Shown piece after piece: positions 1-11,167 of a DNA stretch of 12,076 bases (the stretch's first letter is position 1; every line of letters starts with the position of its first letter). The position numbers and the translations under genes were made by a program. The notes under the pieces were generated by a model, which had not been told where the DNA came from, did no database searches, and worked only from the letters and a program-made list of their open reading frames with translations. The stretch spans positions 1 to 12,076 of the forward strand of contig NYZA01000216.1 of assembly GCA_002686955.1 (NCBI GenBank), in the 5' to 3' direction. This stretch comes from Gemmatimonadota bacterium. GTDB taxonomy: Bacteria; GCA-2686955.

Positions 1-49
1 CTCGAAATAGCCCGACTATTCCTCCGGTTTCGGAACTCACCGATCGACC

Positions 50-106
50 AGGTCCGCGGCACATCTGGGCGCCAAGATGACAAGTTATTCTTGCGCGGCC
101 CCTCAG
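50..106. repeat. Shortened, diverged copy of the palindromic element at 10780-10886
   Basis: Positions 58-106 align without gaps to one arm of the large palindrome at 10780-10886. Shared blocks are GGCACATCTGGG, GCCAA, AGTTATTC and TGCGCGG, and roughly 40 of 49 positions match by eye. The preceding bases AGGTCCGCG (50-58) resemble the outer tip of the opposite arm, so this looks like an internally deleted copy keeping one full arm and only the tip of the other. The tips (51-58 and 94-101) can pair with one mismatch. It lies about 45 bp past the stop of the hydrolase gene ending at 151. A 3'-end or transcript-stabilising role is possible but not shown. Confidence 0.6.
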
Positions 107-2538: not shown

Positions 2539-4170
2539 TCAGCTCACATAGCCCATCGCCCGCAGGGTTTCCTCGACAGCCGCGGCTTCTTCGCCGCCGA
2601 AGTCCTCCTTGCCGCCATGGTCGGAGTCAAGGGTCGGGGGACCGGTTTCTACGCCGTGCTCGGATCTGAACTCTTCCGTGAACAAGTTCAGCATCACTTT
2701 CCCGTCCATATCCTCCGGAACCGGAATATCGAGCAAGTGACAAACCGTCGGAGCGATATCGATGAGCTCGTTGCGATCGGCCGAAGCACCAGCTGAGATA
2801 CCCGGCCCCGCGGCGGCGAGAATACCGTCCATGCGATGCATTCCCGGCACCTTGTCGGTGGGCTCGGTCAGGACCTCGGCCGCGAAAAGATCCGAGTCGA
2901 TGTGGTAGGCGACGTCATCGACTTCGAACTGTATGTCCGGGGCGCGCTCGACCGCCTTCCCGTGCCAAAGATCGGCGCGCTTGTATGCCTTGGGGATGAA
3001 AGGGCGACCGAGATCGGGATCGTCGATTGTCTCGAGCTTGCGACATATTTCATCGCACAACCCCTCGTAATCCGGCCCGGGCCGCACGATTCCTTCGGGT
3101 TCACGACCGGCCTGATTGATCAGAACGATCTCTTCACCCCCGCCCCACGAAGTGTACGCCCGCGTGCGAGACCAATCGACGAGATCCCACGGTGGACGAT
3201 CGTAGCGCCCCGGTGCCGTCACGCGAAAACGACCGGCGATGCGACGCTTTCGCGTCTCCCACCCGCGGCGCCGCTTCTCGGCATCGGGCACCAGCACCAG
3301 ATAGCCCTCATCGATCAACCACTTCGCAAGGTGGAAATGCTTGCGCAGCGGTCCCTGTCCATGATCGGAAAGCAGAAGAATCGTAGTTTCGTCGCCCACT
3401 TTCGCCAGAAGCTCCCCTGTGAGGCGATCCAGCTGGCTGTAGGTGTCCTGCAGGATCCCGCCGAATTTTGCGACCATATCGGGGGATTCGGCCGCGAACG
3501 CCTCGTCGAGAAATCGAAAAGCGACGTGTCCGATCCGGTCCGATGAGGTGAAAACGACCATGAAGAAGTCCCACGGATCTCGGTCCATGAGGTATTGGGC
3601 GATCTCGCAACGCCTTTCCTGGTCGCGCCAGATTTCGTTCAAGAGCTCGAGACGATTCGGGTTGTAGGCAACACCGCCCTCGACGTGATCCATCGGCACC
3701 CACCCCACTCGCGACATCAGCTCGGTATGCAGAGTCGGCGGCCAGGTGAAGCTGCTCTCCACGGAGGGAGCCAACATGCCGGTCACCATGGTGCCGTTGA
3801 CCGGCCTGGGCGGATAGGTGATCGGCACATTGATGACGCCGATCTTCTTGTCGTGGCGAGAGAGGAGCGACCACAGAGTTTCGGTATCGATACTCGTGGA
3901 GTTGATGAGCCGGCGCTCGTAGCTGCCCGGCTTGCGCTCGACGAAGTAGTAGACGCCGTGCTTGCCCGCCTGCTTCCCAGTGGCGAAGCTCGCCCACGCG
4001 ATCGACGAGTTGGGAGGAACGGTCGACCGCAGATCGCAACGCACGCCCCGCTCCATCAGGCGCGCGAGGTTCGGCAACCGCCCCTGCTCGATCATCGGGT
4101 CGGCGATATCGAAAGTGGCACCGTCCCACCCGATGACGAGCACCCGCTCGGGCTTCCGCGACGCTGGCAT
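2539..4170 (-). CDS. Alkaline-phosphatase-superfamily phosphohydrolase/phosphomutase-like protein (COG3379 type), copy 2
   Basis: A 543-residue member of the same superfamily as the gene at 151-1872. Catalytic-site motifs are Asp16 in WDGATFD, a probable Ser nucleophile in NSSIAW (Ser55), GKHG at 69-72, Asp211 and His215 in SSDRIGH, Asp269-His270 in SDHGQG, and His445 in GMHRMDG. It is therefore likely an active metal hydrolase of unknown substrate. It has no signal peptide. The C-terminus is a Gly/Glu/Asp-rich linker followed by LRAMGYVS, echoing the LRSLGYFG of the paralogue. I chose ATG 4170 because GAGGAG precedes it with 9-nt spacing. The in-frame GTG at 4218 has no such site and would add 16 residues lacking family resemblance. 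It follows the VOC gene by 81 bp and precedes the membrane gene by 43 bp. Confidence 0.9.
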   Translation of the reverse strand: MPASRKPERVLVIGWDGATFDIADPMIEQGRLPNLARLMERGVRCDLRSTVPPNSSIAWASFATGKQAGKHGVYYFVERKPGSYERRLINSTSIDTETLWSLLSRHDKKIGVINVPITYPPRPVNGTMVTGMLAPSVESSFTWPPTLHTELMSRVGWVPMDHVEGGVAYNPNRLELLNEIWRDQERRCEIAQYLMDRDPWDFFMVVFTSSDRIGHVAFRFLDEAFAAESPDMVAKFGGILQDTYSQLDRLTGELLAKVGDETTILLLSDHGQGPLRKHFHLAKWLIDEGYLVLVPDAEKRRRGWETRKRRIAGRFRVTAPGRYDRPPWDLVDWSRTRAYTSWGGGEEIVLINQAGREPEGIVRPGPDYEGLCDEICRKLETIDDPDLGRPFIPKAYKRADLWHGKAVERAPDIQFEVDDVAYHIDSDLFAAEVLTEPTDKVPGMHRMDGILAAAGPGISAGASADRNELIDIAPTVCHLLDIPVPEDMDGKVMLNLFTEEFRSEHGVETGPPTLDSDHGGKEDFGGEEAAAVEETLRAMGYVS

Positions 4171-4179
4171 GAACCGACT

Positions 4180-4185
4180 CTCCTC
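4180..4185 (-). promoter_or_regulatory. Shine-Dalgarno GAGGAG deciding the start of hydrolase copy 2
   Basis: On the minus strand GAGGAG is followed by 9 nt and then ATG at 4170. The alternative GTG at 4218 has no purine-rich site ahead of it. This is the main reason for preferring the shorter protein. Confidence 0.65.
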
Positions 4186-4197
4186 GCTGACTGGAAC

Positions 4198-4214
4198 CCG
4201 CGCGGCATGCGCGG
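4198..4214 (-). other. Small GC hairpin in the VOC-to-hydrolase intergenic gap
   Basis: The minus strand reads CCGCGC, a 5-nt loop, then GCGCGG: a perfect 6-bp GC stem between the VOC stop and the hydrolase start. No T-run follows, so it is not a standard intrinsic terminator. It could stabilise the processed mRNA or be chance in GC-rich DNA. Confidence 0.25.
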
Positions 4215-4251
4215 CCACGAAGCGGTCAGGTTACCAGAATCGCGCCGATGT

Positions 4252-8343: not shown

Positions 8344-9576
8344 TCAGAGCTTTCGCGCCCACCGCTCCATCGCACCGAGCGAGATGTGGAAACGGTATTC
8401 CCGCTCCCGGATCGTCCCTTCGTCGCGCACGATGTACTCGAAGGCCAGATCCGCCCACCCCCTGCCGCCCGCGAAGCGCAATCCGGTTCCCAGGGTGAGA
8501 CGGCTCACATCGACACGCCGCCACCCGCCCCCTTGCGACGCGATCCGGTACGGCAGCGGGGAAAGCGCTCCTCCCACCCGTAGCGGCAGATTTTCACTCA
8601 GGTAGGTGCCTTCGCGCCCAAGATACCACTCCAATCCCGCGGCCAGCCGGTAGACATCGCTCATCGCAGGCAAAGTCGCGCCGTCCACCTCGAAGCTCGA
8701 CCAGGCTGAAAGCTCCCCGTCGGCCGCCAGCGTCACGCCTCCAAAGGGTCGCCAGGCGATACCGGCACCGGCTCTAGGCGGCATCGAATAGCTGCTATGG
8801 GTCCTCGATTCCAAGCCCGAGGCGAGCCCTTCGTATTCCTGGAAGCCCTCGGCCCAGGGCGAATAGGTGCCGAAAACGCCGATGTCGACCCCTTTCCCGC
8901 GCCAGAGCAGGCCGAGGGAAAACTGTGTTCCGAGGATCGAGGTTCGCCAACGATCGACTTGGTCGCGGATCGGAATCGGGCGATTCGAAGAATCGTGAAA
9001 AAGAGTGTCGCCTTCAAATCCGAGCAGCCAATCTTCGACCGCGGAGCCGAAAAGGTAGTCGCCTCGCGCGCCGATCGTGATCGCGCCGAGATCGAAAGCC
9101 AGCCCCCCTCCGATCGCCGAGATCGTGCCCGTCGATTGGGTCGAGCGGCGATAGACGAGACTGTCCTGCTCGAGGGTGGTCTCGATGCGGGGCGTATCGA
9201 ACGACGCCTCGGTATGAAGGCCCAGCGCCAGGGTCGTCGTCTCCCCGACCGGGAAGAGCAAGCGCGCCATCTCGAATCCGAAGCTCTCGGTGCTGAGCTC
9301 CGCCTCGGGCCCCTCCGTTCGCAGAGCTCCCGGGCTCAACTCCACACCGAGCATGGCCAGCTCTTCGGCCCGCGCCGTCGCGGGGTTCACGGTCGACAGG
9401 CTTCTTCCGTCCCCCACCGCGATCGTGGCCCCGCCCATACCCAAGGCGCGCACATCGGCCGCTTCGATCGGCTCTCCCATCCCGTTCAGCGAGAAGATCG
9501 ACGCCGCGCCGGCCGCCGACGGAAGCAACATCGAAGCCGCGAGCAGCAATCCGACTCCCGGGATCCGCCCCATCAT
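8344..9576 (-). CDS. Outer-membrane beta-barrel protein (FadL/PorV-like style)
   Basis: A 410-residue exported protein. Residues 1-24 form a signal peptide (MMGRIPG, hydrophobic core, PSAAGA) with cleavage predicted after Ala24. ADVRALGMGGATIAVGDG with NPATA (about 40-67) is the N-terminal signature shared by FadL-like transporters and PorV/PorQ-type outer-membrane proteins. The rest alternates short amphipathic strands ending in aromatic or small residues with polar turns (LALGLHTE, FSLGLLWRG, GVFGTYSPWA, LAAGLEWYLG, WADLAFEYIVR, YRFHISLG), as in a beta-barrel of about a dozen or more strands. Function beyond outer-membrane residence is unclear. The first ATG (9576) overlaps the TGA of the lipoprotein gene; a second ATG at 9573 is better spaced from the strong Shine-Dalgarno site, so the protein may start one residue later. 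Confidence 0.8.
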   Translation of the reverse strand: MMGRIPGVGLLLAASMLLPSAAGAASIFSLNGMGEPIEAADVRALGMGGATIAVGDGRSLSTVNPATARAEELAMLGVELSPGALRTEGPEAELSTESFGFEMARLLFPVGETTTLALGLHTEASFDTPRIETTLEQDSLVYRRSTQSTGTISAIGGGLAFDLGAITIGARGDYLFGSAVEDWLLGFEGDTLFHDSSNRPIPIRDQVDRWRTSILGTQFSLGLLWRGKGVDIGVFGTYSPWAEGFQEYEGLASGLESRTHSSYSMPPRAGAGIAWRPFGGVTLAADGELSAWSSFEVDGATLPAMSDVYRLAAGLEWYLGREGTYLSENLPLRVGGALSPLPYRIASQGGGWRRVDVSRLTLGTGLRFAGGRGWADLAFEYIVRDEGTIREREYRFHISLGAMERWARKL

Positions 9577-10895
9577 GAACCTCCCCCGCCGAAACGGCCC
9601 TCACCCGCCGTCACATACTGGATCTCGAGGCGCGGCAGCGAGTCGACGGGCGCGTCTCCGGCGAAGAACGACACATACGAAACATCGCCGACCTCCGCCG
9701 TCGTGCGGAAGAGGAAACCACGATTGGTCTCGGGCTCGTTGACCCACCTCTGCACCGGCACCTGCACATTCATCGCCAAACTGTCGAGCAAAAGCTCGCC
9801 CAGCTCGAAGAGGTCGACTGTAGTGCCGGGGAAGGCATCGCCCTCGAGATTGGTGAAGGAGCCCCGCCAATTCTCCGCCTCGGCTTCGTGCACCTCGAGT
9901 CCGAAGCCGGGATTGAATCCCCAGGTTCCACCCGCGTCGGGGATCAAAACCAGCTTCGCGCTCAGCACAGTTGCGCGTGCCGGGATCGACGAGAGGTCGA
10001 ACTCCATCAGGCCGCGGCGAGCGAGCCCGTTCTGAACCGTGATGCGCGCGGAGGGGTCATCGAAGGCGGCGGGGTCGGAGATGGCGACCGCATAGGTGTC
10101 CTGATCCGGGAGGACGGAGAAGATGCGGCTTCTGCCCTCGTTCCGCACGACCAGAGTCAAGTGCGCGGGCGCCGCCGCCGTGATCGAAGAGAGCGCGCTC
10201 ATCGCCGGATCGCCAACCGGAAGGAGCGCCACGCCCAGATTGTCCGAGGGATCGTTCATCCACTCCTTCGCATCGTCGAGTGCCATCGGCACGGTGGCGG
10301 TGGAGGTATCACCGGCACTGAAAACCGCTTCGCCTAAGGGAATCCCTCCGCAGATCAGGTCGTCGACGACGGTGGGTGCCGCTTCGTTCGTGGTGCGCAA
10401 GCTGTCTTCGTCCCAGGCGCCGCAAACCGCCCACACCTCGACCACCTGATCGCCGACGAGCGGACGCCTGCGCAGGGTCGCGAAGCTGAGGGTCGCCTCG
10501 ATCAGTGTGTCGCCCTCGGAGAGGTAGGGCGCACCGCTGCTGTCGGCCAATGGGAAGTGAAAGAGGCCCGCCGCGCGCACTCCCTCGTTCTGGCCCACGT
10601 GAACCGCGAATGCGTTTCCGTTCGCTCGCTCCCCAACCACCGACGCGTGGCTGGAGGGACGCAGGGCGACGCTCACCAGCTCACGCTCGAGTCCTCCGCG
10701 ATCGGTGAAATCGGTCGGCAAGTCGCCGGCATTCTCGCCGCACCCGGCGAGTAGCAGGGCGCAGAGCGGGGGCAAGACCTTAAGGGTCCGCGCAGGAATA
10801 ACTAGCGGTTTTGGCACCCAGATGTGCCGGAGATGTGGTGCAGATGGGATGCCAAAGTCGCTAGTTATTCCTGCGCGGACCCTTAACAACCTCAT
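9573..10895 (-). CDS. Lipoprotein with two tandem DNRLRE-like domains and an in-frame palindromic insertion at its N-terminus
   Basis: A 440-residue predicted lipoprotein. The signal core is KVLPPLCALLLAGC with lipobox LAGC (Cys52). From about 70 to 250 and 265 to 428 there are two similar beta-rich units, each with FxxP/FDLSSIP, a T(V/L)..A.L.h strand, a W-N-(D/E)-P motif (EWMNDPSDNLG; RWVNEPETNRG) and a closing strand (HLTLVV; PRLEIQYV). This matches DNRLRE (carbohydrate-binding-like) architecture and suggests surface glycan or structural binding. ATG 10895 is chosen because it overlaps the TGA of the DUF4321 gene (ATGA). Residues 4-38 are then encoded by the 107-bp palindrome, giving an unusually long pre-lipobox region. 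An alternative start is GTG 10817 inside the repeat (26 residues up to the Cys). The frame is open further upstream to 11207 but that overlaps DUF4321. The C-terminal GGGGS is encoded by the next gene's ribosome-binding site. Confidence 0.8.
   Translation of the reverse strand: MRLLRVRAGITSDFGIPSAPHLRHIWVPKPLVIPARTLKVLPPLCALLLAGCGENAGDLPTDFTDRGGLERELVSVALRPSSHASVVGERANGNAFAVHVGQNEGVRAAGLFHFPLADSSGAPYLSEGDTLIEATLSFATLRRRPLVGDQVVEVWAVCGAWDEDSLRTTNEAAPTVVDDLICGGIPLGEAVFSAGDTSTATVPMALDDAKEWMNDPSDNLGVALLPVGDPAMSALSSITAAAPAHLTLVVRNEGRSRIFSVLPDQDTYAVAISDPAAFDDPSARITVQNGLARRGLMEFDLSSIPARATVLSAKLVLIPDAGGTWGFNPGFGLEVHEAEAENWRGSFTNLEGDAFPGTTVDLFELGELLLDSLAMNVQVPVQRWVNEPETNRGFLFRTTAEVGDVSYVSFFAGDAPVDSLPRLEIQYVTAGEGRFGGGGS
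9580..9587 (-). promoter_or_regulatory. Strong Shine-Dalgarno (GGGGGAGG) for the beta-barrel gene
   Basis: The minus strand reads GGGGGAGG, then TTC, then ATG ATG. Spacing is 3 nt to the ATG at 9576 and 6 nt to the ATG at 9573, favouring the second. The site lies within the lipoprotein's last codons and encodes its GGGG tail. Confidence 0.65.
10780..10886. repeat. 107-bp near-perfect palindromic element inside the lipoprotein reading frame
   Basis: The outer 28 bp (10780-10807 and 10859-10886) are perfect inverted repeats starting TTAAGGGTCCGCGCAGGAAT. Further inward, TTTGGCA with TGCCAAA and the CCCA blocks continue the pairing with a few mismatches, so arms of about 45-50 bp meet near 10833. 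TTAA bounds both ends and could be a target duplication or part of the element. The minus strand contributes 35 in-frame codons to the lipoprotein; the plus strand is also open and encodes a similar peptide. A diverged, shortened copy lies at 50-106. No transposase is nearby, so it resembles a MITE or Rickettsia-type palindromic element, mobilised in trans if at all. As RNA it would fold into a very stable hairpin. Confidence 0.85.
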
Positions 10896-11167
10896 TCGTA
10901 CCACCGCAGCAAATACGCCGCCAACACGACCCCCACGATGCTGATCACGTTCAGCTCGATCGTGAGCCCAAGAGTAAACCGCAGCACGACCAGATCGAGG
11001 GTGGTGGGCGTGAATCCGGGTGTGATCGAGCGCGTGAAAAAGTCCTTCACCACGCCGTCGACCATGAACTCGCTGATCAGGGTCCCCATGAGCGATCCGA
11101 TCAGCATCCCCAGCACGAGGACGAGCAGGACCAGCCCGAGCGGCTTCTTCTGACTGCGCAACGCCAT
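10892..11167 (-). CDS. DUF4321 family small membrane protein
   Basis: A 91-residue protein with two hydrophobic helices at about 10-32 and 73-88. Between them FTPTTLDLVVLRFTLGLTIE matches the conserved core of DUF4321 (a P.TLDL segment followed by a GL.h.hN stretch, here GLTIELN). Members are short inner-membrane proteins of unknown function found in several bacterial phyla. GGGAAGAAAG upstream serves as ribosome-binding site for ATG 11167. It starts 36 bp after the polyprenyl synthase stop, and its TGA overlaps the ATG of the lipoprotein gene, placing it inside the envelope operon. Confidence 0.8.
   Translation of the reverse strand: MALRSQKKPLGLVLLVLVLGMLIGSLMGTLISEFMVDGVVKDFFTRSITPGFTPTTLDLVVLRFTLGLTIELNVISIVGVVLAAYLLRWYE

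Follow-up and report, generated by a model that had tools for sequence, protein, structure and literature searches.

The lipoprotein locus and its palindrome

The window, i.e. the whole stretch of 12,076 nucleotides analyzed here (contig NYZA01000216.1, assembly GCA_002686955.1), belongs to the draft genome of a Gemmatimonadota bacterium and carries a lipoprotein gene that is interrupted shortly after its start by a long palindrome. The following features are relevant:

1-102, minus strand: second copy of the element family, full-length type, truncated at the contig start, assigned by similarity to the family
9573-10895, minus strand: lipoprotein gene (open reading frame, 440 aa, ATG 10895-10893, element after codon 3, lipobox LAGC at 10751-10740), 57-58% identical to an ortholog without the element
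10781-10783, no strand: 3-bp target duplication, TAA side, assigned by the family rule; the two sides differ at one base
10784-10882, minus strand: MITE-type element, short form, 99-bp core GGGTCC...GGACCC, with dozens of relatives in its own genome and a 93% identical sibling (L002)
10784-10807, no strand: terminal inverted repeat, 24 bp, perfectly matching 10859-10882 in the pairing check
10859-10882, no strand: second terminal inverted repeat (pairing check)
10883-10885, no strand: 3-bp target duplication, TTA side, assigned by the family rule of clean 3-bp duplications
10892-11167, minus strand: DUF4321 gene (PF14209, E 5e-14), 76% identical in the related genome G001, with the same ATGA overlap with the lipoprotein start

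The palindrome at positions 10780-10886 (107 bp) had been described in an earlier note on this DNA, and the description was borne out by arm pairing, folding and the open frame that runs through it. Its arms (10780-10819 and 10847-10886) are 93% complementary over 40 nt, and in the 99-bp core (10784-10882) the outermost 24 bp are perfectly paired. The RNA of this stretch folds with -106.4 kcal/mol (z = -9.2), and none of 200 shuffled sequences folded equally well. When the minus strand is read from ATG 10895, the frame starts with MRL, continues through 35 open codons (LRVRAGITSDFGIPSAPHLRHIWVPKPLVIPARTL) and then enters KVLPPLCALLLAGC.

The junction was compared with the orthologous genes in one other genome of the same phylum, G001, which shows the same gene order of polyprenyl synthetase, DUF4321 (76% identical) and lipoprotein (57-58% identical). 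The coupled ATG of the G001 gene begins MRIAMWGFVLLVLPAAGC, with 18 residues to the lipobox Cys and without the element; hence, a long N-terminus lacking the palindrome, the pattern that would have spoken against an insertion, was sought at this junction and was absent. Removing 102 bp from the window gene gives MRL(L/F)KVLPPLCALLLAGC, which likewise has exactly 18 residues to the Cys. The core of 99 bp and the 3-bp duplication together account for these 102 bp, so that, given the open frame, the reading frame was kept and 34 codons were added. Judged from the sequence and the length of the ortholog, this in-frame gain of 34 codons is established. The proposal of an in-frame entry of a repeat, after which the lipoprotein open reading frame remained full-length, could thus be retained, whereas the ancestral signal peptide proposed along with it has to be replaced by the 18-residue form equal in length to the ortholog. 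Correspondingly, the previously assumed net gain of 105 or 103 bp is corrected to 102 bp, because 105 bp would leave 17 residues to the Cys instead of the 18 of the ortholog and 103 bp would break the frame. TTAA as the target duplication of the family was also discarded, since clean copies of the family show exactly 3 bp. An AlphaFold model of the lipoprotein built from two sequences reached a pLDDT of 34, too low to be informative.

A MITE-type family in the draft genome

The genome search recommended in the earlier note revealed a multicopy family with further in-frame cases. The window palindrome found dozens of related places in its own genome, and a full-length query gave more. A search with a 22-base terminal pattern, allowing up to 3 mismatches, yielded 147 matches compared to 1 for the reversed control in the 4.28-Mb draft (270 contigs, 84.5% complete), from which the family copies were retrieved as stretches for further study. 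The cores run from GGGTCC to GGACCC, with ends of the form GGGTCCGCGCAAGAATAACTTG; they are mainly 179-180 bp long (GGGTCCGCGC...GCGCGGACCC), and short forms measure 87-99 bp. An exact 3-bp duplication of varied sequence flanks the core in 25 of the 57 listed pairings, including, beyond the common TTA/TAA, clean duplications of TCA (L067, L078, L112), TGA (L101), CAA (L119), AAA (L034, L066), TTT (L065) and ATA (L073). A 3-bp target duplication is therefore the best supported rule for the family. The duplication of the window copy itself, TAA/TTA, contains one mismatch and is not clean.

With terminal inverted repeats, target-site duplications and short multicopy units devoid of a transposase gene (cores of 87-180 bp), the family is a MITE-type, non-autonomous and presumably IS-derived element. 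The search for an autonomous element sharing the ends of the family in the 84.5% complete draft gave two PF01609 places without matching ends and no PF13586 match. The element was absent from 60 other genomes including G001 as well as from the viral contigs and plasmids searched, and comparison with Rfam gave no match, leaving a known RNA family unsupported. An assignment to REP or REPIN was rejected, because units of 87-180 bp with GGGTCC ends and 3-bp duplications do not fit their definition, given in PMC3733652 as palindromes of 20-40 bp that carry, at one end, a tag of the GTAG or CGTC type.

Many contigs terminate within or near element copies (C18, C45, C55, C65, C131, C138, C195, C211, C216, C228, C240, C244 and C260), hence the element is probably a main cause of the fragmented assembly. 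The copy at 1-102 of the window lies directly 3' of a type I phosphodiesterase gene (PF01663, 151-1872), which shares direct repeats with its close neighbor of the same type at 2539-4218. Given that several contig ends fall inside copies, a repeat copy might have been wrongly joined at the lipoprotein locus during assembly; however, the flanks on both sides correspond to the syntenic DUF4321-lipoprotein pair of G001 and the window copy differs from every other copy retrieved, which makes such an artefact extremely improbable.

Insertions in and around genes

Most family copies are intergenic. Only one of 52 copies was found in a gene body, whereas 63% of random TNA sites fall there according to a simple coding model trained on the same genome. 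The closest sibling of the window copy, L002 on contig C196, contains the other 99-bp core (93% identical) and sits in frame in the middle of a gene adjoining DUF4159, where its predicted translation gives the same peptide as that of the window copy. We presume that the host gene is of the DUF4175 type, a name taken from the gene neighborhood and general knowledge; a Pfam search of its protein gave no match. Because the gene was not found in the search of G001, homologs from other phyla were used. Homologs occur in 49 other genomes, with homology on both sides of the insert, and a profile of 27 homologs scored 400.6 bits against the L002 protein without the 34 residues compared to 387.5 bits with them, in one continuous alignment. 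The structure model of this protein has a mean pLDDT of 80 and falls below 50 at residues 194-217; this part comprises most of the insert (183-216), follows the N-terminal helices and precedes the first beta domain. Among the compared codons of the two inserted peptides, 7 have changed, 6 of them nonsynonymously, hence nothing suggests selection on the inserted peptide. L009, at first considered as another mid-gene insertion, lies between two genes.

Six copies (the window copy, L075, L034, L041, L070 and L078) lie within about 10 codons of a gene start when the gene is read across the empty site; among them, ortholog comparison supports only the window copy and L070. The window copy and L075 are read through, while L034, L041, L070 and L078 are frame-shifted. 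L075 (contig C108, 14735-14916) has a 180-bp core with a clean TTA duplication and interrupts, without loss of the frame, the signal peptide of an FG-GAP lipoprotein; the empty site reads (V/M)GRTRFAPVLSLFALSAC. In L070 (contig C65, approximately 1820-2003) a 178-bp core has entered an EF-G gene at codon 6-7 and shifted its frame; within the element, an ATG or GTG agrees with the EF-G frame and would provide the protein with a new N-terminus. Subtraction of the core and 3 bp restores MFAPATKLRNIG, equal in length to the G001 EF-G ortholog MSASTHQLRNIG, which represents an independent check of the duplication rule. The genome contains two further EF-G-like genes. At L034, L041 and L078, two of the three gene pairs are coupled by TGATG or GTGA overlaps. 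The element provides ATGs 26 and 38 nt from its end, and at L034, L041, L070 and L078 alike they match the frame of the gene, an agreement with a chance of approximately 0.012 (one in three each) that was noted post hoc. The net length is divisible by three in about half of the copies, hence three genic cases with a kept frame do not by themselves reach significance. It is a tentative and rather doubtful idea that the family acts as a recurrent remodeller of protein N-termini, with two read-throughs in lipoprotein signal peptides and four replacement starts, EF-G included.

In L095, L029, L063, L038 and L112 the three duplicated bases are at the same time the stop codon of the neighboring gene, so that the stop is preserved on either side of the element. 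Specific targeting of stop codons, considered for these copies, is not established (5 of 53 copies versus 4% of non-coding TNA sites, p = 0.06).

Start codon, fate of the gene and relation to known elements

We regard it as very likely that a shortened MITE copy, moved in trans, has inserted in frame after codon 3 of the DUF4321-coupled lipoprotein gene. The palindrome would be a copy of a non-autonomous, IS-derived MITE that has lost internal sequence and was presumably transposed by a putative transposase that makes 3-bp target duplications. The insertion, directly behind the third codon of a gene translationally coupled to DUF4321, would have separated MRL from the hydrophobic core of the signal peptide by 34 additional codons. 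Translation from ATG 10895, as suggested by the conserved coupling, would yield a peptide such as AGITSDFGIPSAPHLR, and for its export the lipoprotein is predicted to carry a long basic n-region, presumably tolerated rather than selected. Copies of the family persist for the most part in intergenic positions or at the margins of genes. The explanation has its weak points in the unclean duplication of the window copy, the single relative available for comparison and the lack of a transposase with these ends among those found. Moreover, the stem of at least 24 bp begins 9 nt after the ATG and could hinder translation from ATG 10895.

The hairpin onset 9 nt behind the ATG could also mean that the inserted element supplies a new start instead of extending the signal peptide, with the gene now beginning inside or after it. 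GTG 10817 and TTG 10776 are both in frame, and the element apparently supplies the start in the four frame-shifted copies mentioned above; however, the ATGA overlap is kept in G001, GTG 10817 is not preceded by a Shine-Dalgarno-like sequence, and the frame is still open from the old start, making an internal start rather unlikely. We favor ATG 10895 as the predicted start, because no evident Shine-Dalgarno sequence precedes GTG 10817 and the coupled ATG is conserved. It is quite improbable that the gene was inactivated, i.e. that the very stable hairpin directly after the start blocks translation or ends transcription early and that the open frame is merely recent and not yet decayed. The arms perfectly paired over 24 bp might indeed indicate a young insertion, but 440 codons without stop or frameshift, the missing T-run after the hairpin and several other family copies in kept genes argue against inactivation.

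According to the reviews PMC2229807 and PMC10969869, palindromes in frame in genes have been established for Rickettsia (Ogata et al. 2000). The Rickettsia palindromic elements (RPE) resemble the family described here in being palindromes of approximately 100-150 bp with terminal inverted repeats, which lie in frame in protein genes and add an apparently neutral peptide. In contrast to RPE, for which the duplication is marked with a question mark in PMC2229807, the duplication is clear in the Gemmatimonadota family, the copies of which are overwhelmingly intergenic and reside in a high-GC bacterium of an unrelated phylum. The frequent in-frame insertion into gene bodies known from RPE was not found, with one such case among the 52 copies. 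Hence, the relation to RPE, compared by description, is an analogy and not family membership. In Yersinia, the MITE YPAL/RU-2 forms part of a signal peptide (PMC2759123, PMC2229807); however, RU-2 supplies the first signal-peptide residues, whereas here the element splits an existing signal peptide between MRL and the hydrophobic core. The QMITEs of Coxiella are likewise MITEs; they change the ends of genes, provide stop codons or lie in frame within open reading frames (PMC5896051), but host and element are unrelated and the effects on named genes are largely at their 3' ends.

Collectively, a new family in a little-known phylum is involved in a kind of event that is already known. It provides, beyond Rickettsiales and Enterobacterales, an element family with in-frame insertions in coding sequence, and owing to the element-free ortholog and the measured duplication rule the states of the gene before and after insertion can be stated almost to the base. 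The findings support an interpretation of protein-coding palindromes as ordinary MITE insertions that have passed a filter of frame and position, and the EF-G and lipoprotein loci are concrete places at which the tolerance of protein N-termini towards mobile DNA could be assessed.
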